Below, one piece after another: positions 5,701 to 64,000 of a stretch of DNA of 64,000 nt. The notes below the pieces were generated by a model. It ran no database searches, had not been told where the DNA came from, and worked only from the letters and a program-made list of their open reading frames with translations. Source of the DNA: Escallonia rubra (taxonomy: Eukaryota; Streptophyta; Magnoliopsida; Escalloniales; Escalloniaceae); contig JAVXUO010002571.1 in assembly GCA_033065855.1 (NCBI GenBank), forward strand, positions 248,001 through 312,000, written 5' to 3'. How positions within the stretch are numbered: the stretch's first letter is position 1; each line of letters starts with the position of its first letter. Made by a program: the position numbers and the translations under genes.

Positions 5701-5996
5701 TGGATGTTGAACATTAAATATGTTTCGAAGGTGGTTTTAAACATGTCCTTTATCTCATGCTCTTTGGAAGTCCAATTTTCGTCATTGTCTTTCAGATGGT
5801 AGATGTGGTTACGACGACGGCAATTTATAGTAGCTAAATGAAAACAGTGAGTGTTACAGTCACCCTCACAAGCCCAGTGCATTTTTGCACGAACCTTCCA
5901 ATAGTCGTGTTCTTGAGCTAACAACATGTGAAATTTCTCTTAGAGATCATCCTCAATATTGGTCAGGAACGAAGAAGTGTGATGGTCTAGAATTTT
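2777..5996 (-). pseudogene. LINE (L1-type) ORF2, 5'-truncated and decayed
   Basis: Read on -, the blocks run in L1 ORF2 order. About 5927-5601 is the pre-RT region (YWKVRAKMHWACEGDCNTHC). 5599-5015 is RT with GPSKASGPDGYHPGFFQKYW and KLDLEKAYDHLSW. 4957-4667 holds the RT active site as HLFADDILLFG. 4643-4233 is the RT thumb (FAGRTTLVKTVLNSIPVY). 4246-4031 is the zinc region (WKVGNGADIFFWYDRW). About 3300-2950 is a plant-LINE RNase H tail (WQVHVSHIYWEANFCADQLT). A T-rich tract at 2777-2803 is the antisense poly(A) end. Several stops and frame changes break it; one is an in-frame TAA on - upstream of the pre-RT block near 5940. The 5' end stops next to the inverted repeat arm at 5990. No target duplication was found. 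Confidence 0.88.
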
Positions 5997-9246: not shown

Positions 9247-9497
9247 CTATACATGCAGAACACAGCTCTACAGTGTTCGCACTTTTAATGATTTCCTTAA
9301 ATCTATGACATGATTTGGGCAATCAATGCCGAGGTTGAGACACCACCGCTCATGTCTAATATATGTATATATTTATTGGGCATAATAAGAAGATCATGAA
9401 GGATTGGTCAACTATACATCTAATGGCATGGTGTTACCTTCTTTTCATGAAATTTTAACTTACTTCTGTTAGGTAACTTTTTATGTGAACCTTCTCC

Positions 9498-12400
9498 ATG
9501 GCAGCTGATTTTTTTCTTCCCCTCTTGCCTAAACTCTTCCTTGCAGTTGCTTCAATTGTTTTGCTGATAACAAACATGATGAGAGAAAGAAAGGGTGCTG
9601 CTATTGCAGCAGACAAATATAAGGTTGAAAGTCCTGAATATTTTGGAGGAAAAGAAAAGGGAACCATAAACAATACTGTACTTTCTTCATCAAAGAGAGT
9701 TTTTGTACTGTGTTTGGCTCTGCGAATGGCGAATTCACTATTGGTACAAACTTATTTTAACCCAGATGAACACTGGCAAGCCCTAGAAGTTGCACACCGC
9801 TTAACTTTTGGGTGATATTGGTTTATCCTGCTCTTTTTCTTTGCATTATGCTTAAGCTTAGTTTATCTCTCTGTAAACTGCTGCAGTGTGAAATGACAGA
9901 TATGGACATTTAACATGGGAATGGAAAAAAGGTATACGCAGCTACCTGCATCCGATGCTGTTTGCTCTTCTATACAAAGTTCTTTCAGTTTCCCGTCTCG
10001 ACAGTCCATGGGTCATGGTAAATCATACCTCTCTTTTTGTGTTTGGAGTGATGCTATATACTCAACTTTTTAAGAGATTAGTTACATTATATGTACTTCG
10101 ATTAAAAAGGAAAGAGAGTACTTGTGTGAAGAGAACCCACACCCACATCCACACCCACACCTACACACACACCCACGCACATACACACACGCACAAAGCC
10201 ACAAAACTCACACATTGACAGAGTTCGAACTTTGCTCCAATGTGACCTGGAGGCCAGTGGCTCAAAAGGCAGAATTATCCTCTCTGCAATAGTTGTGTAT
10301 TTTGCATTCCAAAACAGCCTCTCTGCAATAGCAGTGGTTTAAACTGTGTGCTAGCCTTTTTTAGATGCATTTTCCATTCCATCACAATGGTTTTGAAGCA
10401 TGCTTGCACACACACATGAATAAATGTACTTGGATACCTTATTATGAATAAGTCATCAAGTCCTTAAAGAATACTAAAAAAAGGGTCAGGGCTCCTGTGA
10501 AGCTCATTGTTATCTTATGTTGGCTTATCAGTAAACTTCCTTGTGAATTTTCTAGAGAGTTTCGGAGTTCCGTTGTCTGTGTGTGTTTCGCGGTTTTTCT
10601 TCCATTTCCGTTTGTAAGAGCTTTATCGACCTGAATGGACAATATGATTTGAAATTTTTTTGTAGCAAAGTTGTGCTGTATATTTTGCTTACCAAAGCAG
10701 CAAAGCGGTTACTTCGGAAGGAACTTCCTAGAAACCATGTCACTTAAAACTAAAATGAAACCTCAGAAAGAGTAAGGTTTCATCTGAAATCACCCCCCTT
10801 GAAAGTAACATAGAAATACCATATGCCAAACGGACCTGCTCAAACTCCTAATCTTCCAGCGTTCTATTCAGTAGAATGAGTCTGCATTTCCTCCTTGCCT
10901 TCCATCACAAAGGCGTCTAGACTTCAATCCTGCCTAAAACAAACAGGTCACAATCGGAAGCTTCCCTATCAGTAAAATGCCCTCAAGGAACCTATTGGCA
11001 GCCACAGGCTTATCGTCTCCTCATCCCCACCATGAAGCTCATTGCTTCCGGGTTCCCCCTGACCTTTCCTGTTCCCCCACGAAAACAAAAGCTACTTCAA
11101 ATGGATTCCTACAGATCTCTTTTATCTAGTTCCCTTCACCAACATCTGCATGGAGCCTTTTTATCTGTAAATCTCCAGAAACCATTTAGAAGCAAAACAC
11201 GTTTCAGTGTTTCACTATTCAAATAATTAAATTTGCAAGTTCAACCCTGTCTACTGACCCAATTTTTTTTTCCCTTAATGCCTTAAGATTTCGTTGCAGA
11301 ACTGTTCACATTCTACACGTTTGTCTTTGTTTTTAGTCTGGCACTTGTCTTACGTTTTCTTTTCTTCTTCTTCTCCTCCTCCATTTTGAAAAACTGTCGT
11401 CCTCTCAACTCTCACTTCCTATCTCCCTCTCTTAAATAATAATAGTTGTAGACTAGAACTGAAATTTGGTACTAAGAACCATGTTGCAGGAACATTGTTC
11501 AGAGAATGAAAATATTCGTACTCTCTCACGGGCAAGAATTTTTAGTGTACATCTGCTTAGCTTTAATTTCCACGTAACCTGATACTGGGTGCAAGAAACA
11601 CGGTGTTTTTCTGTTGACGCTTAGGTATCAAGTTCTCTATTGTAACCATGTGCGTTTTCTTCAGATGAAGGCTCCACGACTGCTGCAGTCGATCTTTTCT
11701 GCATTTGGTGATCTCTACTTCTACAAACTTTGTAAAGTCCTATTTGGTGACCACATCGCGCAGTGGGCAGTATCCTTTTCTGTTGTTCTTTAATAGCTTG
11801 AACTATGACAGATTAACAATTCATTCTCTCTATTTTCTTGTTTTTTCTTCTTTTATTTCGTACTGGGAGCTCTCAATCGCTTCCACGCTATATTCCTAGT
11901 GGTGAGTACAAAGCTATAAATTCTTTCCTTGATCAATTTTGTGCTTGACTCTACCTACAGCTTTTTGCCCAGTTGACGAACTGGTTTATGCTTTACTGTA
12001 TCACACGCACTTTATCGAATAGCTTGGAGACTCTACTTACCCTTGTGGGCCTATATTACTGGCCTTGTATTAGAATGTCTGACAAAATTCCATTGGCATC
12101 AAGAAAGTGGGGTTTGGTAGCAGCAGCTTTAGCATGTGCCATCCGACCCACAAGTGCTATTACATGGATTTATGTTGGTCTTCTAGAGCTGTTGCTAACA
12201 CGCGAAAGACTGAAGTTCATTTTTCTTGAGGTGGCTCCTATTGGGTAGGTATAACTCCATCTTCTTTTCTTAGGATAATGTCACTTTTTTTGCATGTAGT
12301 CTTTACTGTTTCTTCTCCTGCTGCTTTTGTATCATTTGTTGGGTACTGAATTCATTCAAACTTGAGTCAAGAGATTCCTCTTTGATCAGCCTTTTTTGGC

Positions 12401-15400
12401 TGTAACATACGTTTTTGATGAGATGAAAGCGCCTTGATTGGCTAAATGATTTTGATGAGTTGCGCTCCTTGTTTTTGCTTGCAAGAGTTGCCCCTGTAGG
12501 TTTGAGGGAATTACAGAGTTCATGTCCATAAAACATGCATGCGCTCGCACTAAGACAGTGTATAGATTAGCTAGGGAATATAAATCTTTATGTTGTACAC
12601 TGTGTGACGCATATATTGTAGCAACATACATAGAAATCTCGTAATCAATATGCAAGTACAATGCCAATACGTTATAATAGATGCATATTCCTTACATTCT
12701 TTCACACCACCATAAGTTCTTTCCGATGAACTGATAAAATAAGAATCTTCAAGATGACATTGATGTACCATATAAGACAGGCACATTATGTATGTTGTTT
12801 AAGTAGGTAGAGGTTCAGGTGTCTTTAAAGCAGCATGAGCAGAAAGGACCCATGCACAAGACATTGTTGCATATCATTTGCTAGGGTGGGATTACCTATA
12901 TATATTGCTATGTACCTACTGTGCATGTACAACCACAATCTTATCTCGGAAGACGTTATCCAAGACGTTGCAAAACCAGTGAGTTCATGAACCAAGATTA
13001 AAGGATCTCTACAGTTAGAGGACAGATAGTACAACTCTCTCCATCTTTAGCAATATCTGATGAATGGCTGTCCAGAATAATTAGACAACAGTTTTTCTTC
13101 TAGATTGTTTTATGAACAAACTTTGGGTTCTACCCGGATTGTAGGAATCTTCCTCCAATCCCGTATATAGTGACAATTAATAGTCACTAAATATTTCTAG
13201 TGGCTTTTCTTCTAACACATTCATAAACAATTATTAACAACATTTTTTTAGCGTCACTAAATAAATGTCATTAGAGACATTTAGAGACAATTGATTGTCA
13301 CTGTATAGGGGGTAGGAAGAAGATTCCTCCAACCGGGGTAACAACCAAATTTTTTTCTTGTTTTATTGCCAACAACCTGCCAACACCACATCTGTTGAAA
13401 AGAACCGCCAATTGGCACTGTTTGGTTGTACTCTTAAAAGAGTATGGTCCTTATGATTTTCTATGTAACATGGACTCGGTACAAGTGGCCGGGTCGGATA
13501 CGTGTCCAAGTGTCGGATTCGTCTAAATTTTAATACATAAGACATCGAGACACGGCAAATTATTCATTTATGTTAATATTTTTAGTTATTTCTGAGTAAA
13601 ATGGCGTTTTATGTAACGCACATGGTTTTAATTTAGAACTTGTCTCACCTCAAAGTAATAACAAATTAAAAGAAACATTTTAAGACAATGTTCATAGTGG
13701 CATATCTTACAAGACGTGCCGGACACAGATCTCATACCCATGTCCAAGTGTCGAGTGTCCGACACGGGTACCTCTGACATTCAGAAGAGTCCATTTAACA
13801 TAGTTTGATTTTCTTAAGGGTTAATTGCCAATTTATTCCCCGACATATGGCACGTTAGCACAAGTACCCCCCAAAGAAATTTGATTGCAAATCCTCCCCC
13901 TCATATATGGCTGGGATAGCACCCCTTATCCAGATGTAACAGCAGCAACTAAGTCAAGGGTATTGTCGGTAGTTCTAGTTCACTTAAATATAGGGTTGAA
14001 ATTTGCAACTTAAAACTTTGGGATATGTTTTGCAAATTTTGATTAAGACATGTAAAAGAAAAGGGGCAAAAGGAGAATAGAGAGGGGGAGAGCACCATCG
14101 CACCCACCGTCGCAGAACTCGTTGCCTCCAGGGACCTTCTTCGCCGACTGTTAGCATCTTTCCGTCACCGACCTTGGCAAGTTCACATGCCAAGGTAAAT
14201 CTACGCACTCAATGCCAGAGGTAAAACAGTCTCTGACCATCCAACACCACGACTAATCTGTCGGTAACAGCCATCAATTGTTGTGGCGATTAGTCGTGGG
14301 TGCGATCTGTGGGTGATGGAGTTTCGTGCCAGTAGTGTTGTTTAAATTAAAGGATCTATGGGCTTGGTGGCGGTGGGCAAAGCCGGTGGTTTTGGGTTTA
14401 CAATTGGTGGTGGGGTGGTTGCCCATTTGGATAATGGTTGCAGTGTTGGTGGGTGGTGTGCTGATGTGGTGGTGTGTTGATGGTATTGGTGGTGTGGGGG
14501 TGGGTATGCTGATGTGGTGGTGTGTTGATGGTGTTAGTAGTGGTGTAATGGTGGGTCTAGAGTTGTGGTGGGTATGCTGATGTTGTGGTGGGTACATGGT
14601 GTTAGTGGTGTGGTGGGTTTAGGGAGGTGGTGGTTGTGCTGATGTGGTGGTCTGTTGATGGTGTTTTGGTGGTGTGGTGGTGGGTTTGGGGTGGTGGTCA
14701 GTGTGCTAACGTCGTGATGTGTTGATGGTGTTAGTGGTGTTGGTGGGTTTAGGGTGGTGGTTGCTGCCGTTGGTCTAGGCGGCAAGATAGTCCTATCCTT
14801 TAAATGCTGGACACAAACGGCTTATCCGGCCTGTAATCTGGGTTTGATACCAAAGTGGGACATGATTTATATCTTATCCGGCTCATCCTACAGGATATGT
14901 ATCCAGGTTTATCCGCTCATAATTTTGTCTTATCCGATTGAATAATCCAGCACCCGAAACGCAGCCAAACGGACACAAACGACTGAATTATCCGGCCTGT
15001 AATCTGTCCTTGTTAAAGTCAAGCAATCGACCACACATAAAATTGACTTATACTGTCAACCTTGCCACCAAACACCTAATTTCAACGAAGTTTTCTCAAG
15101 CTTTTCTAGTTAGAGCAAAAAGAATATACTTTGGGGGGTTAATAGCGAAAATATACCCTAACATATGGCACGTTTGTAAATTATATCTCAGACCTTTCAA
15201 AATAGCTTTTTTATCCACCAAACTATGGCTAACGTTGCAAACGTTTACCTTCCGTCCAACTTTTTGAAAAAAAACTAGGGTTTGCAAAGTTATCCCCCAA
15301 CATATTGAGGGCATATTGGTAAAATCGCCTTGGCATATTTTAAAGGGAAAGATTGCGGGGCTGTATAGTCCTCTTGTGTAAATTACCAAATATGAAAATT

Positions 15401-18400
15401 CAGATTATACCTTAACGTATAATATTTCCAAATCAGAATTTGAAAATTACCAAAGATTGAATTTGAAAATAAGAAATTTTGAAAATATTAACATTTTGTT
15501 AACAAAAAATGTGAAAATATTATACCTTAACATTCAACTTTTGTTAATGGAAAATATGAAATTTTGTTAAGGTATAATATTTTCTTAATTTTTAGAAAAT
15601 ATTATACCTTAACATTTTGTTAACGAAAAATATGAAATTCATATTTGAAAATTCAGACATTTTGAAATTTTCATATTAACATTTTGTTAACGGAAAATAT
15701 GAAATTTCATATTAACATATTTGAAAATATGAAAGTAGTCGTTAGAATTTTGCATTTTAAATTCTAATTTTCAAATATGCAAATTTCATATTAGAATATT
15801 TAAAAGGCAATATGAAAAATTCATATTCTAATATGAAATTTCATATTCTAATATGAAAGGCAATATGAAAGTTCATATTCTAATATGAAATTACATATTC
15901 TAATATGAAATTACATATTCTAATTTGAAAATTCAGAAATTTTGAAAATATTAACATTTCGTTAACGGAAAATTTGAAAATATTAACATGCATAATTTCA
16001 TATTTTGAAAATATTAACATTTTGTTAAGGTATTTTCAAATTCATATTTTCATATAATATTATACCTTAATGTATAATATTTTAATTCAACTTCAAATTT
16101 TCAAATATGAATTTGAAAAAATGAAAATATGAATTTGAATTTTCAAATTCCGAAAATTCAAATTTTCAAAGATTGCAGGGATGTATAGTCCTCATGTGTA
16201 AATTTTCAAATTTTCATATCTGAATTTTCTAAATTTTTTTCAAAATTTTAAATTCATAATAAATCTGTGTAAACTACCAAATTTTCTAAACTAGGGTTTG
16301 CAAAATTATACCTTAACATTTTGTTAATGTTGTATTTTTATACCTTGGCAAAAAGTGACCTGACCAAAATACCCTCGCAGTTAACGGAAAAACTAACAGG
16401 GTGTGGGCACCAGAATCGTGCCATAGTTTGGCGGATAAAAAAGCTATTTTGAAAGGTTTGAGATATAATTTGCAAACGTGCCATATATGAGGGTATATTT
16501 TCGCTATTAACCCTACTTTGGGGGTTAAATTTGCAAAACCATAAAATTCAGTGTTCGTTTGACAAAATTTTTTTTTAGGTTTTTTTATTTTTGGTGTTTG
16601 GTATCCCTTTTTATTTTGATTTTTTTTTTTGTGGTTTACGGTGGCGGTGGTGGGGTGTAGCGGTGATGGTGGTGGTGGTCGGCGGCCGGAGGTGGCTGCC
16701 GACAGTCGTCGGCGGTGGTCTCCGGCGGCCGGAGGTGGCTGCCGGCAGTCTCCGGCGGCCGGAGGTGGCTGCCGGCGGCCGGAGTTGGCTGCCGGCGGCC
16801 GGAGGTGGCTGCCGGCAGTCTCCGGCGGTGGTTGCCGGCGGCCGGCGGTGGTCGCCGGCGGCCGGAGGTGGCTGCCGGCAGTCTCCGGCGGTGGTCGCCG
16901 GCGGCCGGGGGTGGCAGCCGGCAGTCGCCGGCGGTGGTCGCCGGCGGCCAGAGGTGGTGGCCGGTGGTGGTGGTGGTGGCCGGCGGCCGGAGGTGGCGGC
17001 CGGCAGTCTCCGGCGGTGGTCGCCGGCGGCCGGCGGTGGTCGCCTGAGGTGGCTGCCGGCGGTGGGAGGGTGGTGGTGGTGGTCTAAGAAAAAAAAAGTG
17101 AAAAAAAAAACCAGTTTCTTTTTTTTCACTTTTTTCTTCAGTTTAAAAACTGGTTTTTAAACTGAAAAAAAATGGTTACCAAAACTTTTTTTTTCAGTTT
17201 TTAAAAACTGAAAAACAAAAGAAGAAAAAAATTTTGTCAAACTAGGCCTCAGTGTTTCCTAAAATGCCCTCCATACTTTGGGGGATAAATTTGCAAATAA
17301 TGGTTTAATTGAAACTTTTCTAATAGAAGGCATAACATTGATCTCCCTGCCATAAGTGGGGGAAGCTATGAAGCACGGGTGCGCCACTTCGGTGGACGTA
17401 CCAGCACCGTGTGTGGATCAGGGGCAGGTGCGGCTCGGGTGCGCATAGGTTTCTTGTCCGCCATCTTTTTTTTTTTTGGAATTATATTTCTGGATCTTGG
17501 GTGCGGCTTTGACACGGCAGGGATAGGGACACACACGAAGTCTTTTTTTGACGGAGAGGAGAGAGGTAGAAGAAGAAGAAGAAGAGGAGGAGGAGGAGAG
17601 AAGAGGAGAAGGAACAACCTCCGGCAACGGTCGTCCAGCAGCAGCGGCGACGGCTTCTCACTTGAAGGCTGTTGTTGATAGCTCTGCCGATGTTGTCGGA
17701 AGTGTGGTTTTGATAAGGGTGACAACTGTCTATAAGCTAGGGTGACAGCTGCATCCAACTTCTTGTTTGCTTTGTTTATGTACCAGCTTTATTGACTACT
17801 TTCAAGTAATATCAAAACTTATACAGACTCATATTTGGCTATGCACTTTGACCGCTAAAGCAGCCCATCAAATTAACAAACTCTCTTATTGTTTGTTTAA
17901 AATAGTGTTACTTTTGTTACACCCAAATAAATATATGCTGATAAATATTTGCGGTATCCGCACTGCACCCTTATCCTATTGTTTGAGAAAATGACGTATT
18001 CGCGTATCCGCACCTGTATTGTTTTCACACCTGCACCGTAACCCATGCTTCTTGTTTTGGGGGTGGAGAGGGAGGGCAGGGTTGGAATAAATTGCGATTG
18101 ACCCCTTCTTATTGACAGTAGGTTGCAGTTTCTCTAGAATCCCGTGTGCATGCAGCTGTGTAGAGTGTAGAGATGGCTTGAGCTAGGTCTTGGCATGATA
18201 CCTCAGATAATCACAGCAATCGAATCTCTTCTCCTGTCCCTAATTGTAATTTAATGACACAAGTCCTCTGAAGCACGGACACCCCTCCTAAGGGGGGGTT
18301 TGGTGTCCTAAACGGACGGACACCCCGACACCCTCCGGACACCGCCGGACACGTGTCCGACACCGCCAATCGGTGTCCGAAATTTTTTTATTTTTTTATT

Positions 18401-19116
18401 ATTTTCGGACACCGTGTCGGACACTTCATCGAGGAGTGTCGGACACGGTGATGTGCAGTGTCCGACCGTAAATGTAAGAAGTGGGGGTTTTTTGAAGAGA
18501 AACAGATTGTGCCCTAAATCCCTAAATCCCTAATCTGAAAAATAAACATCTGCGAAGCTCACCTTACGGCCGTCAGCTTCGAAGCACCTCACGGAAGCCA
18601 TTCACCTGTGAATCTCACCTCGCCGGAGCTGTTCGCGACCATTCCGAAGCCGACGCCGACGATTCCAGTCGCCGTCGCGAAGACTGAAGCAGCTGCTGCG
18701 ACTTGCCGTCGCTATCGCCGGAGGTCACTGCATCGTCGCCGGAGCTCCTTGCCGCTGTCGCCGACTCACAGGTACCTTCTCTTGAATCTTCGAAGTCGTC
18801 TGTGTCGCGACTGTCTTGCCTCTCTCTCTTTTTTTATTTCTCTCCCTGTGTTGAGTGTTGGACTCAACACTCAAGACTCGTTTACATATTTTGTAGTTAA
18901 TTTCCAGATGTTGGAAGTTAGTCCTATAGTCAACTTAATTAATTTCAGTAGTTATTTTGTCAACTTATTTTGTAAACTTAATTTCAGTAGTTATTTTATC
19001 AACTTAATTTCAGTAATTATTTTGTCAACTTAATTTCAGAATGCAATGTGTTAGTGTATATTTATTATTAGTTCATTATTAATTGTTATTTTAGATTATG
19101 GAATGTATTTGATATT

Positions 19117-19158
<42 letters not shown>

Positions 19159-21598
19159 AAAATATTAAAAAAATAGCGGTGTCCTGCGGTGTCCAAAATC
19201 CAATATTTTGGAAATTGCGGTGTCCGGTGTCCCCGTCGGTGTCGGTGTCCGACACCGTGTTCGTGTCCGTGCTACCTAGCACAAGTCTATCTTTTTTGAT
19301 GAATATTTAGAGAATTCTTTAGTATTGGGAAGGGTTCGAAACTCGAACCACTCATCCACAGGTGTCATGTAAAACTACGTTGAATCTTATACTTCTTACC
19401 TATTTCAATTTATTACTGAAATGAATACAACTGCATTTGATCTCCTCCATATATACGAGAATACCACGACACACGTGAATCGAGTGAATTCATGCTCATG
19501 TATAACTTGACTCTGTCATTCTGGTTTTTGCTCCCCACCCCTTCTCTTAGTGTTAGCTTAAGTAACTGTAAGGGAGAATACAAATATTTGCGCTTTATCT
19601 TTTGGCTGAGCTGGGAGATTCATTTATAAAATTTTAATGGGATTCTGTGTCCGAACAGTTTTGATAAAAAGAATTTCTTTAGTTGATTTTACTGACAAGT
19701 GGAATTCTGTGTCTGAAAAAGGACACTCGTTCGTTATTCTTTTGATAAAAGGAATTCCTTTAGTTGATATTACGGGGCAAGTTATTGCCATTGTGATCTA
19801 AAGCACCGTTCTGTCGGACTTTTGCATAAATTATTCCAAACAGATTGAAAAGGCTCCATACTAGCCAATTCAAACAGTTGTTAAATCTATTTTCTAAACA
19901 GCATACAGGTTGATCAAGAAAGAAATTTACTTGGCTCTAGCATACTTGTCTTTACCATTCATTTCTTAAGATAAATAAGCTTCTGAGTTATGCTCTAGTC
20001 AATCAACAATTTTAGGAATTTAGGTGTTCAAGGTGCAATCTACGTAAAAATGGACATGGGAAGACCTTACCGGAAATCTCTCTTATAGAGTTTGAATTCT
20101 AATTATTTATCATGCTGTTCATAATGCATGGTCATGCAATTATTTACCTTTGCTTTGAACTCATGCTGTCAGAGTTGTCGTGCTTGGACTCGCGTTTCTG
20201 TTGGATCGTCTGATGTATGGCTCGTGGGTCTTAATGCCTTTTAACTTCCTGAAGTTCAATGTTCTCTCTTCTGGTGGAGACTATTATGGAACTCACAAGT
20301 GGCACTGGTACTTCACTCAGGGATTCCCAGTCATGGTCTTTACTTTCCTACCACTTTCGATATTTGGCATTTTGCTATCTAAACAATGGAAGCTTTCTGG
20401 GCTTGTAGCATGGGTTTTGGGGTTTTATAGTTTACTAGGTCACAAGGAATTCAGGTACCTGCATTTGCCTTTTTTTTGTCTCTCTCTCGAGAGTAACTTG
20501 GTTATCCACTAACCAAACCCTGCGACTGAGTGCTTCCAATAACTTTGATGTTCTCTGGGTATTCATTAGCCATGATCAGCGGGCTTGACTTGTCAAATGG
20601 CAAACAGAAAAGATCTGGAAAGAATCACAACAAACGCTTCTCGAAAATACAATTAACTGTCTTTTTCCTGCTCGCTACAAATATTCCAATGGCTTATTAT
20701 ATGAGTATGGTTCATCAGGTACATTTTTCTTTTCCTTATGAGGATGATATCTCCCTGGGAGTCCCTTGTGTTTTCTTATTCTATCCTTCTCATGCTTATT
20801 AAAGTAAGAAGTTACCTGCAAATACCTGTAGGTAATTAAACATTGAATATGAACACCCTTTTTTACCTGAAAATACTTACAGAAAGAACATAGTTTTGCA
20901 CATTTAATCATGAAGAATGCTGTTTTTTTCTTTTTGGTTGCTTATTGCTCTTGTCTCATTCTTACCTGTACACATATTGCACAGAGAGGAACTGAGGACG
21001 TCATGAATTATCTTGCCAAAGAGGCTCTATATGGGAAAGTGAAAAGTATTCTATTCCTGACACCTTGTCATGCTACACCTTACTACTCGACCCTGCATCA
21101 CAATCTTCCTATGCGTTTCTTAGATTGTTCACCTAGGTACAAGCCTGGACTGTAATGAAAGTTCTTGCTTCTATGTTGTGCTGATGCATGTAGTTTATAA
21201 GTCGACCTTAGGTTTGGGCGTACTCTCTTGGCAGCGAAATGAATGGAACGCTTGACGAGTCTGACCAATTCATGATGGACCCAGCTGGATTTGCGTCAGC
21301 GTTTGCGAAAAGTTGGTCTTTACCCAGTCATATCGTACTATTTGATTCACAGGAGAAACTACTAAAGGATTTTCTAATATTGCATTCGTTTGAGGAGGTT
21401 TGTTCAGTACTTTTTTGATAGCCTTGATATGAATTTTGCAGTTTCCCCTCTTACTTATTTCTGGGTTCTGATGGTCAGAGAAGGAGGTTCTTTCATGCTC
21501 ACTTCAAGGTGGACCGAGACCTTCAAGCATCGGTGGTTGTTTATGCTTTTTTGACTGAAAGGCTGACAAGTCCTAGTTTAACCAAACAGCTTACCTGA
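9498..21598 (+). CDS. PIGB: GPI mannosyltransferase 3 (PIG-B / APTG1-like), nine exons
   Basis: Adds the third mannose to the GPI-anchor precursor in the ER lumen (GT22/Alg9 family, multi-pass membrane protein). Exons by homology and GT-AG sites: 9498-9811, 9900-10017, 11665-11769, 11961-12244, 20173-20454, 20531-20718, 20985-21136, 21235-21397, 21479-21598. Landmarks: the luminal acidic motif TYFNPDEHWQALEVAHR (exon 1), TWEWKKGIRSYLHPM (exon 2), ALACAIRPTSAITWIYVG (exon 4), LLDRLMYGSWV and GGDYYGTHKWHWYFTQGF (exon 5), PCHATPYYSTLHHNLPM (exon 7), FFHAHFKVDRDLQASVVVY (exon 9). The ATG at 9498 is in good context (ccATGg), but homologues as I recall them start near MRERK, so 9579 is a strong alternative. 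All junctions keep phase except exon 5 to 6: exon 5 ends in phase 2 (20454), the only usable acceptor (20529-20530) puts exon 6 one base out, and the conserved RFVLPV stretch is missing. The gene may therefore be defective or wrongly resolved there. Intron 4 is 7.9 kb of transposons. Confidence 0.9.
10133..10205. repeat. Degenerate CA-rich tract in PIGB intron 2
   Basis: Imperfect ACACCC/ACACAC repeats. Intron 2 (10018-11664) otherwise shows nothing recognisable. Confidence 0.8.
12245..13453. other. 5' part of PIGB intron 4, no feature recognised
   Basis: Begins with the donor GTAGGT. AT-rich. A weak repeated motif (GTCACTAAAT / AGAGACAATT) lies near 13170-13300 between two oppositely oriented copies of a GGAGGAATCTTC-like sequence (13145, 13315). 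This could be an old MITE, but I cannot define its ends. Confidence 0.35.
13462..13805. mobile_element. Small hAT-type MITE (copy D)
   Basis: A 344 bp segment with inverted ends (TATGTAACATGGACTC against the complement of GAGTCCATTTAACATA) and an 8 bp direct repeat TGATTTTC at 13454-13461 and 13806-13813. Both ends carry GTGTCCAAGTGTCGG-like repeats, echoing family H1 but with different tips. Confidence 0.6.
14330..14775. repeat. GTGGTGG-rich degenerate minisatellite
   Basis: About 440 bp made of variants of GGTGGTGTGTTGATGGTGTT and GGTGGGTTTAGGGTGGTGG. The strand bias (G and T on +) yields long open frames on both strands that are not genes. Confidence 0.85.
14776..15126. other. Intron sequence with a short direct repeat
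   Basis: The motif ACACAAACG followed by TATCCGGCCTGTAATCTG occurs twice (about 14810-14838 and 14973-15006), with further TTATCCG motifs between. It may be the remains of a small transposon; the ends are not defined. Confidence 0.4.
15136..16513. mobile_element. Non-autonomous Mutator-like element with long inverted ends
   Basis: A 1378 bp element with terminal inverted repeats of about 95 bp starting GGGTTAATAGCGAAAATATA. It is bounded by a perfect 9 bp duplication TACTTTGGG (15127-15135, 16514-16522). The interior is extremely AT-rich and built from degenerate repeats of TTCATATTCTAATATGAAA, which fold locally. No coding sequence. Confidence 0.9.
16556..17248. mobile_element. hAT-type MITE containing a GC-rich minisatellite
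   Basis: A 693 bp element with inverted ends (CGTTTGACAAAATTTTT against the complement of AATTTTGTCAAACTAGGCC) and a perfect 8 bp duplication TCAGTGTT (16548-16555, 17249-17256). Its middle is a GGCGGCCGGAGGTGGCTGCC array. An inner pair of AGTTTTTAAAACTGAAAAA-like palindromes lies at 17105-17215. Confidence 0.82.
16672..17075. repeat. GC-rich minisatellite GGCGGCCGGAGGTGGCTGCC
   Basis: About 400 bp of imperfect copies built from GGCGGCCGG, AGGTGGCTGCC and GGCAGTCTCC. It is open on several frames of both strands only because of its composition, and is no gene. Confidence 0.93.
17369..18054. mobile_element. Probable hAT-type element (copy F)
   Basis: Left end CTATGAAGCACGGGTGCG and right end complementary to CAAGAAGCATGGGTTACGG share GAAGCAYGGGT, close to the tips of family H1. 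Subterminal GTGCGG and ATCCGCAC motifs occur at both ends. It interrupts the right arm of the outer Mutator-like element (13818-18105). The flanking TGGGGG at both sides hints at a worn 8 bp duplication. It includes a GAA/GAG-rich stretch at 17560-17612. Confidence 0.5.
18266..19279. mobile_element. hAT-type non-autonomous element, family H1, copy C
   Basis: A 1014 bp element with tips CTCTGAAGCACGGACAC and the complement of CTAGGTAGCACGGACAC. The 8 bp duplication CACAAGTC (18258-18265, 19280-19287) is perfect. Same plan as copy B: subterminal GTGTCCGACACC arrays, a GC-rich exon-like block (about 18560-18770) ending CACAGGTACC (possible splice donor), then a T-rich part and an (AT)n run near 19123-19155. 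It lies in sense with the host gene's intron 4. Confidence 0.9.
19288..20172. other. 3' part of PIGB intron 4
   Basis: No element recognised. A direct repeat (TTGATAAAAGGAATT-like at about 19661 and 19742) is visible. Ends in the acceptor TGTCAG before exon 5. Confidence 0.4.
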
Positions 21599-38719: not shown

Positions 38720-38728
38720 TAAATAAAA

Positions 38729-39961
38729 GAGTTAATTACGCGGTTGACCACTGTACTATTAGGCAAATTTTATTTTGACCACTGGACATCGATTTGTGTC
38801 ATAGTAACCACTAAACTTTAAAATTCGTTTCAATAAGGTCACTCCGTCAATTTAAGTCCGTTTATTTAGGGGTATAACCGTCCATTCACTGTTCATCGTC
38901 TTCTTTCTTCTTTTTCTTCTTCTTATTCACTGTTCACCTTCTTTCTTGTTCCGTTTTCCCGGACACCCAGAATCAAATTTCGTTGCTTCCCAACAAGGTA
39001 ATCTCATTTCCTTGCTTCGTTTCTCTTGTCTATACTTTTTTTTTTCCCGTTTTGGGTTTTAAATTGCAGGACTTATTATGCAATTGTTGTTGAACCAATT
39101 GATCATATAAGTCAAACTCTAATTATGAGAAATGTTGTTTGTTATGTATGGCTGTTTTAGGAATCTTGGTGGGTTTCTGGTGAACAGTAAAGATGTTGGG
39201 AGATCTCATAACTGGAGGTCTTATGTAAGCCATCAATTGATCCTCTTTTTTTCTTTTCTTGTAATCTTCCTTTTTGGGTTTAAAACTCTCGAGTTATTTG
39301 TGCATACTTTGATTCTTCAGATTGGTTCTTGGATATGCATATCCTGCATTTGAGGCCACCGTTTCCGGCGAAAAGGCCGTCGCCGAGCACGAGGAGGGGG
39401 AGGAAATCGCCGCCGGAGCAGAGTCCACGGGGCTAAGGTTGCTGGGCCTGCTGCTGCAGTGCGCCGAGTGAGTGGCCCCCCAATTCCCCACCCATGAACA
39501 GCAAACGCGCCAGCGACCGCGTTGCCGGCGACCACGACGACAACCTCTCCAACAAGCGCAGCAACTTCTCCGACGAGGCCACCGTTTCTGGCGAAAAGGC
39601 CGTCGCCGAGCACGAGGAGGGGGAGGAAATCGCCGCCGGAGCAGAGTCCACGGGGCTGAGGTTGCTGGGCCTGCTGCTGCAGTGGACAAAATGAGACGGA
39701 AAGGGAGTGAAGAAGAATAAGAGAGAGAGTGAGAGGGGGGGTGGGAGGAGGGAAAGAAGAGAAAGAAGAGGAAAATTCATAAAGACTAGCGTAAAAAGAC
39801 CAATATACCCTTGAGTAACCTAACTCCGTCAATATTAATTTGACAGAGTGACCTGATTGAAACGAATTTCAAAGTTTAGTGGTTACTATGACACAAATCG
39901 ATGTCCAGTGGTCAAAATGAAATTTGCCTAATAGTACAGTGGTCAATCGCGTAATTAACTC
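38729..39961. mobile_element. Pack-MULE-like element carrying GRAS gene fragments
   Basis: A 1233 bp element with terminal inverted repeats of about 115 bp (tip GAGTTAATTACGCG, nearly identical at both ends). It is flanked by a perfect 9 bp duplication TAAATAAAA (38720-38728, 39962-39970). The left interior looks like a 5' UTR with a splice donor (CAACAAGGTAATCTC near 38993). The right interior holds two overlapping copies of a GRAS gene piece. No transposase. The high similarity of the ends suggests recent activity. Confidence 0.93.
39352..39682 (+). pseudogene. Captured, duplicated N-terminal fragment of a SCARECROW-like (GRAS) gene
   Basis: The segment 39494-39682 reads from an ATG as MNSKRASDRVAG ... 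KRSNFSDEATVSGEKAVAE ... ESTGLRLLGLLLQ. This is the variable N-terminus and the first conserved residues of the GRAS domain in SCL23/SCARECROW-like proteins (LLQCAECVA at this point in the family). A partial copy at 39352-39477 covers the last 108 bases with only two differences (offset 223) and runs further, giving CAE, then TGA where the family has Cys, then VA. Neither copy can encode a GRAS domain. GC content and codon use contrast with the AT-rich element around it. SCL23 itself against another SCARECROW-like member cannot be settled here. Confidence 0.75.
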
Positions 39962-39970
39962 TAAATAAAA

Positions 39971-41613: not shown

Positions 41614-42293
41614 TGTTAGAATTTGTTTTATTTTATTTACAAATTCTTTTAGTAAAGCTTTAAAACCTTAATTTATTTTCTTTATTTATGTTAGTCAAAG
41701 TAACCTATGGTATTAAACTTTGTCATAATGTTATTCATAATGTTTTTGACCGTTGTTATTTATTATGTGTGTAACCCCTAGTCTTCTTCTACTATAAAAG
41801 GAGACCACTCCTACCATGGAATATACACATATCAAAACATATTCTTGATATTTCATATGCTCTCTACATTCTATACTTTTGGTTTTTTGGGCAACTTGAT
41901 CGGGCTAGTTCAACCGTCTTCCTGTGGACGCACACATAGAGAAGGCAACGCTGCGAGCCTTGGGTTTTATCTTGGAGGGTTTATCGTTCGTTGGAACCCG
42001 TGCGTAGGGAGACGATAAAGCCTTTAGGACAGCGATTTTATCGCGACTCTCACAGGCCAGCGCAAATTTATTTTAATTCTCTATATCTTGAAATTGCATG
42101 CTAGTTATAATACTTGACATTTGTTTTGTATATTAACTATATGCTTATAATATGCTTATTTTGCATGTCTAATATATTTTAAGTTAGCCATAAGTTTTTA
42201 TTATTTTCATGGTTATGCAATTATATTTTAGTCATACTTTATGATCAATTATTTTGAAATTGACGAAGCAAATCCAAGCTAATTTTCCTAACA
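41614..42293 (+). repeat. Copia 5' LTR
   Basis: 680 bp, begins TGTTAGAATTTG, ends TTCCTAACA. TATA-like ACTATAAAAGGAG near 41790. Confidence 0.97.
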
Positions 42294-45200
42294 ATCTAAA
42301 GGCTTTATCATAGCTTTGATTTGTATATGTTTGATAATCGAGTTTATAATTTTTATTGTTTAAATTGGTTATGTCTAGAAGTGACAATTTGCAATTTTGG
42401 ACTAAGATTTATTAACTTCGTATACTGTTCATGTGTTTTATATATATATACTGTTCACGTAATGTACTGTTCATATTCTTGAGATTACTGTGCACACATA
42501 CTGTTTCGCGTACTGTTCATACTGTTCACGCACTGTTTCGTTACTGTTCGTACTGTTCATGTTTACTGTTTGCATTAAAAAAAAACTGCTTGACTTTTCA
42601 ATTCACAATTAGTCACTTTTATTTACTTCTTTTACTGCTTATATTTTTTAGTCAATTATTTAGTTAAAGTATTGAGACTTAGCCTTTTGTTCTTATTTTT
42701 TTTTTTCTTTGCTTTAGTTATTCCTATGGCATCTAATGATGAAACCATCACCCTTAAACCCGAAAAATTTAATGGACAAAATTTTAAAAGATGGCAAAGA
42801 CAAATGAAATATTGGCTTACCGTTTTAGGCTTCATCTCGGCAATAGAGGAAAACAATAGTCAACCTCGGGAGTCGAGTTCTTTGTATACTCCCGAACAAA
42901 TTGAGTTTCATTGCCTTAATAGAATCCTAAGTGCCCTTTCGGATCGTCTTTATGATGTATATCATGCTACAAAAAGTGCTAAGGAACTTTGGAATCTCTT
43001 ACAAGGTGAATATGGCATTGATGATGCCGGTATAGAACGCTTTAATGCGTCTACCTTTAACAAGTTTGTTATGGTCGAGGGAAAAGCAATTAGTGACCAA
43101 ATTCATGAGTTCCAAGACCATTTAAGGGCCGTTGAGGAGAATGGCTCTAAGTTTAGCGAGGATTATAAAGTGTCTTGCCTTATAGACAAACTTCCTCCAT
43201 CTTGGTCCGACTTTGCTAAAGGTCTTAGACATAAACAAGGAACCTTGACTTTGACCCAAGCCTTCAATTCCCTAAGGATAGAAGAAAAGCATAGGGAAAG
43301 TATCAAACAAAAGGGAGTAACGTCGAATCAAGCTAATTTGGTGGAAAATAATATAACTCCAAATACACCACACCACCTTAGACCTAGATGGAATAACTTT
43401 AGAAACAATAATAGGCGGAACACCCAAGGCAACAATAATTTCCATCGAAGAAACTCCCGCCATAACAATTTCCTAGCCAATCGTTTTCCTCAAAACAACA
43501 ATAACCAACTCGCAAACCTTCCAAATCATAAGAATGCAAAGGATGCTAAGGGCAAAGGAAAGAAGAGACCATGTTACGTGTGCGGAAGGACAAATCATAT
43601 AGCTCGAGATTGCTTTTACAAAAGAGTTGAGGAGTACAAGCCAAATGGTAGAAACCAAGGAGATCAAGTCAACATGTTGCTAGATGATGAACCTCCTATT
43701 AGGTTTGATTCTAATCCTTGTTTAGTGAACTATAGTTATCAAAGTAATGATTGGTGGTTAGATTCGGGTGCTAATGTACATGTTTGCTTTGATCGTGGAC
43801 TTTTTAAAACTTATCAGAACTCAAGTGGAGGAAGCGTGACACTAGGAAATGATACAGCCGCACAAGTGATAGGAATCGGAAGAGTTGATTTAAAGATGAC
43901 ATCAGGGAAGACGCTAACGCTTAACGAAGTGCGGCATGTTCCGGAAGTTAGAAGAAATTTGATTAGTGGATCATCCTTAGTCCGACAAGGATACAAAGTT
44001 GTGATGGAGTCTAATAAAGTTGTAATAACTAGGAATAACGTATTTGTCGGAAAAGGTTATGTTTGTGATGGATTGTTTAAACTAAGCATTTTGATCAATT
44101 CAAATGAAAGTTCTTCTTTAGTTTTAAATGTTGAATCTAGTGAGAAATGGCATGAAAGATTAGGACATGTAAACTATGGGAAGGTCAAGAGGTTGATGGA
44201 TTTAAGCTTGATTCCAAAAGCAAGTATAGATACTAAAAGTAAGTGTAAGATTTGTGTAGAGGCAAAGCAACCTAGAAAACCTCACAAACCAGTCCATAGA
44301 AATACAAGTCTTTTAGAACTTATACATAGCGATGTATGTGACTCAAACCGAACTCCTACTAGAGCGGGTAATAAATATTTTGTGACCTTTATAGATGACT
44401 TTTCAAAATACTGTTACGTTTTTCTAATCAAGACCAAGGATGAAGTGTTTGGTAAGTTTAAGATATATAAGAATGAAGTTGAAAACCAACTAGAAAAGAA
44501 AATAAAGGTCCTTAGGTCTGATAGAGGTGGAGAGTACACGTGGAATGAAATTAAGAATTTCTGTGAAGATAGTGGGATAATTCATGAATTAACACCCCTT
44601 ATTCACCCCAATCAAATGGTGTAGCCGAGAGGAAAAACCGTACATTGTTAGACATGGTTAATGCAATGTTGTTAAATTCTGGTGCACTTGAGTAATTGTG
44701 GGGGTAAGGCGTCTTGTCATCTTGTTTTATACTAAATAGAGTGATCGTTAAGGATCATGACAAGGCTCCATATGAGCTTTGGAAAAAGAGATCTCCTAGG
44801 CTAGATATCTTAAAAGTGTGGGGGTGTTTAGATAAGGTAGCCATACCCGAACCTAAGAGAAAGAAAATCCGGCCCAAAACTATAGATGCCATTTTTATAG
44901 GATATGCTCAAAATAGTAGCGCAAATAGATTTTTGGTTGTTAATTCTGAAATTAGTGAGATTTCAAACAATACTATCATAGAAGCTAGAGATGCTACATA
45001 TTTTGAGGATATATTTCCTTTTAAGACTAGGCTATCTAACCAACCATCTAGCTCTATAATCCAAGTAAGTGGTAAAGCACCTCATAGTAGCACAAATATA
45101 GAACTTGATCTAGATTCTCCTATTGAACCTAGGAGGAGTAAAAGAGTAAGGATAGAAAAGAACTTTGGAGATGGAATTTTCACATATTTAGTTGAGGGAG

Positions 45201-47313
45201 AACCCAAGACTTACCAAGAAGCTATGTCATCCATAGATTCGCCTTATTGGAAAGAAGCAATCAATGATGAGTATCAGTCAATCATTCAAAATAATACTTG
45301 GGTGTTATCTGATCTACCTCCTGGAAACAAACCCATAGGTTGTAAATGGGTGTTTAAAAGGAAGCTAAAACCTGATGGGAGCATAGAAAAATACAAAGCT
45401 AGGCTAGTAGCTAAGGGGTTCACACAAAAACAAGGGATAGATTACTTTGACACATATTCTCCTGTAGCTAGAATAACCACCATTAGAACCCTGTTGGCGC
45501 TAGCATCTATTCACAACCTAGTGATACATCAAATGGATGTTAAGACTGCTTTCCTAAATGGAGACTTAGATGAAGAAATTTATATGGAGCAACCTGAAGG
45601 TTATAAGGTCAAAGGACAAGAAAATAAAGTGTGCAAGTTAGTGAAATCAATCTATGGTCTTAAGCAAGCCCCTAAGCAATGGCATGAAAAGTTTGATGAA
45701 GTTATCCTAGGTTATGGGTTTAAGATTAATGATCATGATAAATGTCTGTATACTTGAAAGGATAATAGTGAACACGTCATACTTTGCTTATATGTGGATG
45801 ATATACTGATTTTTGGGACTAATCTAGATATTATTAAGAATGTGAAGACCTATTTATCTAGGAATTTTGATATGAAAGATTTGGGAGAAGCTCATATAGT
45901 TTTGGGAATGACGTTAGAAAAAACTCATGAAGGGATCATATTGACTCAATCTAGTGCCATAGAAAATATGTTGAAGAGATTTGGATATTACGATACTAAT
46001 CCTGTACAGACTCCATATGATTCAAGTATAGCTTTAAAGAAAAACTTAGGAGAACCGATATCACAATTGAAGTACTCTCAAATCATAGGATCCCTATTAT
46101 ACTACACTAATAGGACTAGGCCTGATATAACATATGATGTTGGGAGACTTAGTCGATATACCCAAAATCCTAACAAGGAGCATTGGAATGCTTTAAAAAG
46201 AGTATTAAAGTATCTTAAAGGGACTTTAGAATATGCATTGTGCTATAAAGGGTTCCCAAATGTGGTAGAAGGGTATAGTGATGCTAATTGGATAACCGAT
46301 AGTTTAGAGATCAAATCTACGACTGGTTATGTTTTTACATTAGGAGGAGGATCTATATCTTGGGGATCTAAGAAGCAAACAATCATTTCTAGAAGTACTA
46401 TGGAGTCTGAGCTGATCGCTTTAGATACAGCATGTACAGAGGCTGAATGGTTAAGAAATCTTTTGCTAGACATACCTTTAGTGAATAAGCCTTTACCAGC
46501 TTTATCTGTGCATTGTGATTGCAAAGTTGTTATAGATCTTATTAAACAGTCCCACACGAACAAAAAGATGAACAGACACATACAAGTAAGGTACAAATCT
46601 GTCAAGGGACTAGTAAATAAAAATGTGATATCTCTTAATTTTGTGAGATCTGAAAAGAATTTGGCTGATAACTTGACTAAAGGTTTACCCAGGAAGGGTG
46701 TATTTGAATCATCGAGGGGGATGGGGCTTAAGCCCACAGGGAGTCACCAGCGGGGGTAACCCAACCTTTATGATTGGAGATCCCATGAAGAAGGTTCAAT
46801 GGGTAGGAACAACCCGTAAAGCGTGACTCATAATGATAGCACTAATTTTACAGGAGAGCGTCTCCTCCTCATCCCTATGGTGATAGTGCTACTTTGTGTG
46901 ATGTTAAGGAAGGGTTTTACCCTGAATGAGCCCGAGGCGGATATTTTCGCGAGGTACAGTCACACGTACCCTTGGAGGACTCACCTAAATGAGAGTGGTC
47001 GTGAGGCCGCGACTGTGGGAACTGGGCTGATCCCTAAAGACTCTCGTGAGAATCAAGATTAGAGCGCATGGCCTTTAATAGCGCTACCCGCTATGAACCA
47101 AGCCCTATATCAATATTGCGTGTGTGACTAATTGAAGTTTGATCAAGGGACCTAATTCAAGGCGTAGTCCATTATGGCTCCCTCAAATGGAAATTGTCAA
47201 CACTAAGTGTAGGTTCAAGCCCGGAAGGCACCTACACCCATTGCGCAATATAAAGTTGCCCATACTTTATATACTATTTTGATGTTTTAAGGTTTTAAAC
47301 CTTTGTGGGGGAT

Positions 47314-47993
47314 TGTTAGAATTTGTTTTATTTTATTTACAAATTCTTTTAGTAAAGCTTTAAAACCTTAATTTATTTTCTTTATTTATGTTAGTCAAAG
47401 TAACCTATGGTATTAAACTTTGTCATAATGTTATTCATAATGTTTTTGACCGTTGTTATTTATTATGTGTGTAACCCCTAGTCTTCTTCTACTATAAAAG
47501 GAGACCACTCCTACCATGGAATATACACATATCAAAACATATTCTTGATATTTCATATGCTCTCTACATTCTATACTTTTGGTTTTTTGGGCAACTTGAT
47601 CGGGTTAGTTCAACCGTCTTCCTGTGGACGCACACATAGAGAAGGCAACGCTGCGAGCCTTGGGTTTTATCTTGGAGGGTTTATCGTTCGTTGGAACCCG
47701 TGCGTAGGGAGACGATAAAGCCTTTAGGACAGCGATTTTATCGCGACTCTCACAGGCCAGCGCAAATTTATTTTAATTCTCTATATCTTGAAATTGCATG
47801 CTAGTTATAATACTTGACATTTGTTTTGTATATTAACTATATGCTTATAATATGCTTATTTTGCATGTCTAATATATTTTAAGTTAGCCATAAGTTTTTA
47901 TTATTTTCATGGTTATGCAATTATATTTTAGTCATACTTTATGATCAATTATTTTGAAATTGATGAAGCAAATTCAAACTAATTTTCCTAACA
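47314..47993 (+). repeat. Copia 3' LTR
   Basis: 680 bp, exactly 5700 bases from the left copy, with four substitutions and no length change. Preceded by TTTGTGGGGGAT, the likely polypurine tract. Confidence 0.97.
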
Positions 47994-61944: not shown

Positions 61945-62074
61945 CCCCCTTACCCTCTCACTCCCCTCCCACTTCCAAACCAGCCCGTCCTCTGCACACA
62001 CACACAATCTCTCTCTATCTCTCTCTCAAGCCTTCTGTTGCTCTCTTTATCTCTCTATATATCTCTAAAAAAAC

Positions 62075-64000
62075 ATGGCGAAGGACGTAGGGGTAGCTGA
62101 GCATGGGTCTTTCACGGCCAAGGACTACCAGGACCCGCCGCCAGCGGCGTTCTTCGACCCCAAAGAGTTAACGAAGTGGTCATTTTACAGGGCTCTCATC
62201 GCCGAGTTCATTGCCACGCTTCTCTTCCTTTACATTACGGTCTTGACCGTGATCGGGTACAAGAGCCAGACCGACCCGTCCAATAACTCCGACCCGTGTG
62301 GCGGGGTCGGAATTCTTGGCATAGCTTGGGCCTTTGGTGGCATGATCTTTGTGCTTGTCTACTGCACCGCCGGTATCTCTGGTGGGTTTCACTCCCTTTC
62401 TCTCTCTCTCAGATTTTTTTGAATATTTTTGGGAGAATGAATTGTGTCAAAAGATTTTCTAAAAAGTACATCCATTTGTGGTATTTATTATATTCATGGT
62501 CAAATGCTATGCAATCCCAAGAAAAATACCTTCTAACTAATAAAAATATCAAATTTAGAAGTGATGCATAGAAATTTCTTTGGAAAGTTTAAGGTTTTTT
62601 TTTTTATCTTTTAATTTTCTGCTTTTACTTTCTTATCTGTTTTAAAAGTTGTTCGTTGTCAATGTATAAAAGTCGTTTTTCCTTTTTATTTTCCAACAAG
62701 ACAAACAACAAGATCTTGAAATTATTAGTATTTTTTAAGACGAGTTATATCGAGAACTTTGGAAAAAGGTTAACAAACGTTTTTTTTTTCATTTTTCTCT
62801 TTTCTGGGTTTTATTCATGGTCAAATGCTATGCAGTCCCAAGAAACTACCTTCTAAATAATAAAAGTATCAAATTTAGAAGTGATGCATAGAAATTTCTT
62901 TGGAAAGTTTAACATTTTTTTTTTATCTTCTAATTTTCTGCTTTTATTTTCTTATCTGTTTTAATAGTTATTCGTTATCCAGAAATAGAAGTCGTTCTTC
63001 CTTTCTATTTTCAACAAGACAAACAAGAAGATAATGAAATTATTAGTATTTTTTAAGACGAGTTGCTGTATAGATAATTTTGGTTAAGGGTAACACACGT
63101 TCTTTTTTATCTTTTTTGGATTTTGTTCTTGAAAATGAAGAAATATTTTATACTACCACAGTCCACAAGTGATGGACTAACGAGTTGGGTACGTGCAGGG
63201 GGTCACATAAACCCGGCAGTGACCTTTGGTCTCTTCCTGGCTCGTAAGGTGTCGTTGATCCGAGCAGTGATGTACATGGTGGCTCAGTGCTTGGGTGCCA
63301 TCTGCGGCGTTGGGCTCGTGAAGGCCTTCCAGAAGCCGTACTACAAGAGGTACGGCGGCGGGGCTAACTGGTTGGCCGACGGCTACAGCATAGGCGTTGG
63401 ACTGGCCGCCGAGATCATCGGGACATTCGTCCTTGTGTACACTGTCTTCTCCGCCACCGATCCCAAGAGAAACGCCAGAGACTCCCATGTTCCTGTAAGC
63501 TCCCTCATGACATCCCTCCAATCTAAATTATGAAACTCCAATATCAGTTGGGTGTCAACAATTCGTAAAAAAACCCCGTCAAGTAACTGCTTTTGGGTTT
63601 AAAAAGTTCTCTTGGGCAGCGCCGAAACTTGAGCTAAGCTGCACCATCTTGGTTGGGCTGTGAGCATTGTGATTGGACCATTTTTGTCATGCACATTTAA
63701 GGTCACATATATTTTTGTTTTCTTTGGAAAAATAGTAAACAGCCGGTTGGAAATGAAACTGTTCCATTCTAGTTTAAGGCATAACCAATTAAGAGCTTTT
63801 CAAGTATGTCATAGTTGTCATTATTAAGCAACCATCTTTGGTGCCCCAGTGCCATGCCATTTTTTGAGTGATTTTGTAGTTCTCTAAAGAATAACAAAAC
63901 GAAATTAGACTTGCGCGTGAACAAGAACGTTAATTTACTTGATTTGTTTGGATCTTGAAATTATTTGGAACTGTATACTTGTAGAAAGCTTGATATAAAG
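62075..64000 (+). CDS. PIP2: PIP2-type plasma-membrane aquaporin, exons 1-2 (3' part outside window)
   Basis: Tetrameric water channel of the plasma membrane. Exon 1 is 62075-62381 and exon 2 is 63199-63494; both junctions keep phase (GT-AG), and the next exon lies beyond 64000. Residues 1-201 are seen. The N-terminus [11 protein letters not shown] with [13 protein letters not shown] is of the short PIP2 kind. Helix 1 is about 40-62 ([16 protein letters not shown]). Helix 2 ends at CTAGISGG, the PIP signature. The first NPA box is [10 protein letters not shown] (Asn107). Helix 3 follows the phosphorylatable Ser121 in ARKVSL. The PIP motif [11 protein letters not shown] precedes helix 4. Loop D carries RDSHVP with His199, the pH-gating histidine position. 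Oddity: residues 4-6 are DVG, where many PIP2 proteins have the diacidic DVE used for ER export. Which PIP2 paralogue it is cannot be told. Confidence 0.96.
62485..63110 (+). repeat. Tandem duplication (321 bp period) in aquaporin intron 1
   Basis: ATTCATGGTCAAATGCTATG occurs at 62492 and 62813. The following blocks (AGAAGTGATGCATAGAAATT, GAAATTATTAGTATTTTTTA) repeat with the same offset and modest divergence. The intron (62382-63198) is thus doubled in length. Confidence 0.93.

Follow-up and report, generated by a model that had tools for sequence, protein, structure and literature searches.

Pack-MULEs are non-autonomous transposable elements with long inverted ends and a 9-bp target duplication. 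They carry GC-rich fragments of host genes and form chimeras from several parents. The plant Pack-MULEs are said to have been described by Jiang et al. in 2004. Helitrons belong to a different class of transposon, without inverted ends or target duplication. In Oryza, according to PMC4858842, about 5–10% of the putative genes derived from MULEs take their frame from at least two parents. How Pack-MULEs acquire DNA is unsettled: PMC3310237 calls the mechanism yet to be understood, and gap filling and fork switching are proposed in PMC8277862.

The family described here comes from Escallonia rubra and was met in a stretch of 64,000 nucleotides, termed ‘the window’. It resembles the plant Pack-MULEs in its probable non-autonomy, its ends, its 9-bp duplication, its GC-rich gene fragments and its multi-parent chimeras. 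It differs in that the order of capture is visible within one lineage and one genome, and in that several near-identical donor places remain. Gene shuffling by Pack-MULEs is of a known kind; what makes this family useful is that its captures can be put in order: a single capture, then a tandem doubling, then separate later captures, with junctions that can be read base by base. In tomato, PM-ZIBP (PMC3310237) is likewise a multi-copy Pack-MULE, with 14 copies; it took up one gene, whose parent sits in that same genome. Its ends are doubled, whereas here the cargo is, and its description gives no evidence of further gene acquisition, in contrast to the gene types added here. The Drosophila Ssk-FB4 Pack-MULE (PMC8277862) is also multi-copy; it captured most of a gene together with sequence upstream, and its copies have distinct target duplications. 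For it proteomics and positive selection are reported, whereas the present family shows no constraint. Stepwise addition of gene fragments to one element lineage is likewise described for maize Helitrons (PMC3288121). Among the papers listed in literature searches there was no GRAS/HVA22 Pack-MULE and no report of this family.

The element in the window occupies 1,233 bp, is Mutator-like, and has long inverted ends and a 9-bp target duplication. It is very probably a real Pack-MULE, and one copy of a multi-copy, probably non-autonomous family with serial capture. Its features, in window coordinates, are these:

38720..38728, no strand: left copy of the target site duplication, TAAATAAAA, a perfect 9-bp match to the right copy
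38729..39961, + strand: the whole element, very probably a Pack-MULE, with GAGTTAATTACGCG ends on both sides, a perfect 9-bp duplication and 38 relatives in the genome bounded by the same terminal inverted repeats
38729..38855, + strand: left terminal inverted repeat; over 128 bp it and its right counterpart are 94.5% identical
38946..39354, + strand: 5' portion captured from an HVA22-family gene, 97% identical to C1674
39193..39471, + strand: possible chimeric open frame, spliced conceptually at GT/AG sites common to the donor gene
39352..39477, + strand: GRAS fragment, first unit, 5'-truncated, parent positions 93 to 218, its GAG common with the HVA22 junction
39478..39684, + strand: GRAS fragment, second unit (parent -16 to 202); its start codon lies at 39494, and a 12-bp deletion is private to it
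39494..39694, + strand: open frame MNSKRASDRV...LLLQWTK* (66 aa), from the list of open reading frames, with the C-terminal end GLRLLGLLLQWTK*
39835..39961, - strand: right terminal inverted repeat, from an inverted-repeat search of the window
39962..39970, no strand: right copy of the target site duplication, TAAATAAAA, a perfect 9-bp match to the left copy

The preliminary description had proposed a transposon holding part of a captured GRAS gene, with a perfect 9-bp target duplication and near-identical ends of 115 bp. The transposon, the capture and the duplication are all borne out; the ends are indeed nearly identical but longer, at 127–128 bp. The arms at 38728–38855 and 39835–39962 pair over 128 nt with ~95% complementarity, which agrees with the long terminal inverted repeats of MULEs (about 100 bp or more), and the perfect TAAATAAAA pair is the duplication usual for them. 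To judge by size and layout, there is little room for a transposase, the element being mostly ends and captured genes; the three frames of at least 100 aa inside it all run antisense to the cargo. When the flanks are joined, they match C1386:171800–172291 (query 30–557, 73% identity), where the element is absent: the alignment continues across its insertion point, interrupted right there by small gaps. This related empty site is paralogous rather than allelic. In the same contig, the wider element-free region (G000:C1386:171750–172350, L064) lies upstream, at a distance of ~115 kb.

The 331-bp GRAS cargo has 46 matching places in the 566-Mb genome. Of these, 43 have E-values from 1.8e-169 to 6.5e-66, and the other three are 53–54-bp pieces of elements already counted; together they collapse to 40 loci, the window included. 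Among the other 39 loci fetched, 38 hold the cargo between the same two ends, a few slightly truncated, so that 39 end-bounded elements with the GRAS fragment, window copy included, were examined. With a tolerance of up to 3 bases in the end positions, 31 of the other 38 show perfect target duplications (29 of 9 bp and two of 8 bp); four have one mismatch and three have more. The duplications vary from element to element and the ends stay constant; 38 further elements with differing duplications indicate that the family was mobile after capture. These counts are lower bounds. The 39 exclude L057 and L061 (longer GRAS parts), L059 and L060 (46-bp remnants) and L058, which have the same ends, as well as C2618 and C1822, additional loci known as sequence matches alone. 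A first look at the whole genome gave 1,295 candidate elements with these ends. No autonomous partner with the family ends is among the findings; MULE transposase domains are abundant in the genome. A first look gave 3,309 candidates for such domains genome-wide, of which the 150 scored all lay above the cut-off, and many of the candidates listed lie in frames of about 777 aa.

One GRAS locus, C2858 (L037), sits in none of the GRAS-carrying elements and has no such ends within 5 kb. Counted from its start codon, its uninterrupted frame is 426 aa long and contains the complete GRAS domain (PF03514, 390.5 bits); the cargo is 87–93% identical to this locus. C2858 is the parent gene of the cargo, in the same genome. 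We take parent and cargo to be SCARECROW-like (SCL23-like). A search for such a parent had been recommended, with the capture to be given up if no GRAS gene matched beyond chance; the parent and the 43 strong matches contradict that outcome. The peptide encoded by the captured fragment ends at the very beginning of the GRAS domain. A Pfam search with the bare GRAS fragment and the chimera described below matched no family, a PDB search with the bare fragments gave a single match at chance level (E 0.12), and an Rfam search of the window gave none.

Within the window element, 39352–39461 is repeated at 39575–39684 over 110 bp at 98% identity, with two differences (39366 and 39435). The doubling and the two differences had been described correctly, with a length of 108 bp. 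In parent numbering, with the start codon as 0, three elements (L030, L035 and L040) hold -263 to 224 as one piece. In 29 of the 39 elements, position 218 is joined directly to -16, giving a 235-bp tandem unit (-16 to 218). L017 has three units, and L031 and L032 have other DNA at or near the unit join; the elements outside these 29, L017, L030, L031 and L032 have one unit each. The early-branching L030 has a separate internal duplication of its GRAS part, parent 42 to 224. A doubling specific to the window element, as at first supposed, is rejected, since the junction occurs in 29 of the 39 elements and the unit is inherited. On a tree, first units and later units fall mostly into separate groups, so the doubling is older than the spread of that branch. 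In most units of the doubled branch that reach that far, TGA replaces the Cys codon after LLLQCAE. This stop is present also in the one-unit copies L034 and L039, and is absent from L030, L033, L036, L038, L040 and the last unit of L014.

The second unit in the window is odd. Besides its 12-bp deletion it has five private changes within parent positions -7 to 25, each replacing A or T by C or G; four of them are scored as singletons in the frame, and the fifth is upstream of the start codon. The private cluster spans 39468–39560. Among the best 40 of 47 candidates, the highest other identity is 87%, and another locus as the source was rejected, the cluster being absent from the 40 other matches listed. 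Sequencing error, a burst of mutation or a lost donor are possible origins.

The left part of the cargo had been read as a 5'-UTR-like stretch with a splice donor. Splice-like sites are there; the segment really stems from another, HVA22-like gene, whose 5' end it represents. This origin, the multi-copy status of the element and the in-frame fusion were overlooked in the preliminary description, and a reading of the single element misleads: only comparison with the sister copies brings out the age, the second gene and the doubling. Outside the elements, 38946–39354 has one match, C1674, at 97%. The predicted product of C1674, with exons joined by eye, contains PF03134 (TB2/DP1/HVA22, 90.9 bits), and the locus has none of these ends, and no GRAS, in 9.5 kb. 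We take C1674 to be the HVA22 donor. With exon limits predicted from GT/AG sites and reading frame, the captured segment comprises a piece of 5'UTR exon to 38997, an intron, an exon at 39161–39224 with the start codon at 39193, a second intron, and the start of the next exon at 39321–39354. All six substitutions and all seven gap columns between window and donor are intronic, leaving donor splice sites and exons unchanged; this is not strong evidence of constraint, because 259 of the 409 bases are intronic.

Three of the 39 elements contain the HVA22 segment: the window copy, L013 and L009. In the latter two it extends to -386 of the donor start codon and includes a TATA-like CTATATATAAACC at -344; in the window copy it starts at -250, without the TATA-like CTATATATAAACC. 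In L009 the first UTR exon and intron are incomplete. Directly before the HVA22 part, L013 and L009 have an inverted, end-like stretch, AACCGCGTAATTAATTC, placed as if an element end had adjoined the donor at capture. At the 3' junction with GRAS, GAG is common to donor and recipient. Conceptual splicing of 39193–39224 to 39321–39471 would give a chimera of 60 aa, MLGDLITGGLILVLGYAYPAFE/ATVSGEK...LLLQCAE*, and the same conceptual frame exists in all three carriers. Outside the HVA22 block and the first GRAS unit the three carriers differ more, and divergence along the element is uneven; exchange between copies is therefore possible.

Further genes have been captured by other members of the family. 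Masking of the ends and the GRAS part left seven groups of inserts of at least 385 bp in the 39 elements, HVA22 included, and one group of 68–80-bp pieces. Three inserts match protein families, all antisense relative to GRAS: LRR in L031 (PF00560, 8.4e-25), PPR in L032 (PF01535, 1.1e-18) and WRC in L026 (PF08879, 2.4e-9). The LRR insert is 99.7% identical to C1345 (2 mismatches in 621 bp), where a long frame has the same LRR peptide. The PPR insert matches C1844 at 99%, and the WRC insert matches C3061 in two blocks separated by about 720 bp, at 97 and 99%. For insert C (C1035, 99%) and insert G (C933, 91%) there are similar places beyond the listed elements; C1844, C3061, C1035 and C933 are candidate donors and may themselves be elements. 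Insert B is carried by L011, L018, L042, L044 and L045. The likely donors of the HVA22, LRR, PPR and WRC captures are thus 97–99.7% identical to the captured pieces, and the GRAS and HVA22 donors establish that the cargo consists of host gene fragments.

A recent move had been deduced from the near-identity of the ends and the perfect target duplication; the deduction from the ends fails. Left and right ends of the same element have a median identity of 93.8% (in the 33 of 39 elements whose left tip is intact), and left ends of different elements one of 96.9% (528 pairs); the ends were compared ungapped, and the low tails of both distributions are unreliable. Since identity is lower within elements than between them, the two ends are separate versions inherited by the family, and their similarity is rejected as a clock for it. 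(In another family, similarity of the ends is used as a sign of youth, according to PMC3310237.) The window insertion nonetheless appears young, because its duplication is perfect, the related site is empty and sister copies match it in the HVA22 block.

The GRAS frame gives no sign of purifying selection in 62 singleton changes, of which 38 are nonsynonymous, 22 synonymous and two stops, against 40.1, 21.2 and 0.8 expected from sequence context (P(N<=obs) 0.31). This count omits misaligned stretches in the first units of L020–L025, in the second units of L026–L029 beyond position 132, and in the first units of L031 and L032 beyond 190. All changes in 36 units, where common ancestry is counted many times, number 105, 77 and 1 against 124.6, 57.0 and 1.4 expected, and would suggest weak constraint; the hint is absent from the context-aware singletons, and constraint on the frame was rejected. 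Among 36 units with a start codon, two are broken within the first 67 codons (a frameshift in L010 and a stop in L019); changes follow immediately beyond them in L025 and L035.

Read from the copies, the history began with an ancestor that copied the 5' end of the GRAS gene, -263 to +224, and multiplied. One branch then acquired a stop in place of the Cys codon that follows LLLQCAE, and its 235-bp piece (-16 to 218) doubled. Later, family members gained further gene pieces, which in the sub-lineage of the window was the HVA22-family 5' part; the window copy appears to have lost the TATA-bearing upstream part that two sisters retain. Template switching may account for capture, or else gap repair; mobility was presumably supplied by a MULE transposase encoded elsewhere. 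The GAG junction happens to preserve the frame, and hence may yield the 60-aa HVA22–GRAS chimera. Most likely, we infer, the cargo is neutrally drifting mobile DNA, and at most a source of transcripts or small RNAs against the two donors.

An ordinary exon or pseudogene of the host, flanked by coincidental ends, is a hardly credible reading of the segment: splice-like sites and open frames are present, but the duplications differ between elements while the ends stay, both parents lie elsewhere without ends, and a related site exists without the element. A better case, if still a doubtful one, can be made for the family as a source of small RNAs against the GRAS and HVA22 donors, through read-through transcripts or hairpins of the inverted ends. 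Counted against assumed parent transcripts, the 39 elements have 16–183 perfect 21-mers each in common with the GRAS parent (union 257 of 1,383), and the three carriers have 93, 95 and 126 in common with the HVA22 parent (union 132 of 283); the window copy itself has only 16 of the former, against 93 of the latter. In maize, Helitrons, Pack-MULEs and Sireviruses with captured sequence are siRNA reservoirs, according to a review (PMC13317346). Against it, no inverted repeat of the cargo itself is listed within the window element.

That selection keeps the HVA22–GRAS chimera, or the truncated N-terminus of GRAS, as an expressed and functional new gene is very unlikely. The in-frame junction, the unchanged donor splice sites and exons of the window copy, the 60-aa frame common to all three carriers and the TATA-bearing upstream part retained in L013 and L009 would favour it. 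But a join is in frame by chance one time in three, the HVA22-bearing copies are too alike for a selection test, the GRAS-frame singletons fit neutrality, frames are broken in L010 and L019 and changed further on in L025 and L035, and the peptide stops where the GRAS domain starts. Slightly less improbable, though we would still bet against it, is that the family is a living ‘gene-splicing chassis’ that repeatedly recaptures pieces of genes unrelated to one another (HVA22, LRR, PPR and WRC), with an HVA22 branch whose promoter-proximal part, UTR pieces, splice sites and in-frame start would produce an expressed short membrane-segment/GRAS-N-terminal peptide in the TATA-keeping L013 and L009. 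Neutral drift of a mobile cargo remains the reading we prefer.

Other parts of the window also contain recognizable sequences. A Copia-like retroelement, its family read by eye, occupies 41614–47500, with frames at 42594–46759; stretches of 187 bp at 41614 and 47314 are 100% identical and are probably LTR starts, the second ending at the edge of the stretch searched. Also by eye, frames on the minus strand at 4233–5939 resemble a broken non-LTR (LINE) reverse transcriptase, those at 9489–20512 a GPI mannosyltransferase gene, and those at 62069–63533 a PIP-type aquaporin gene.
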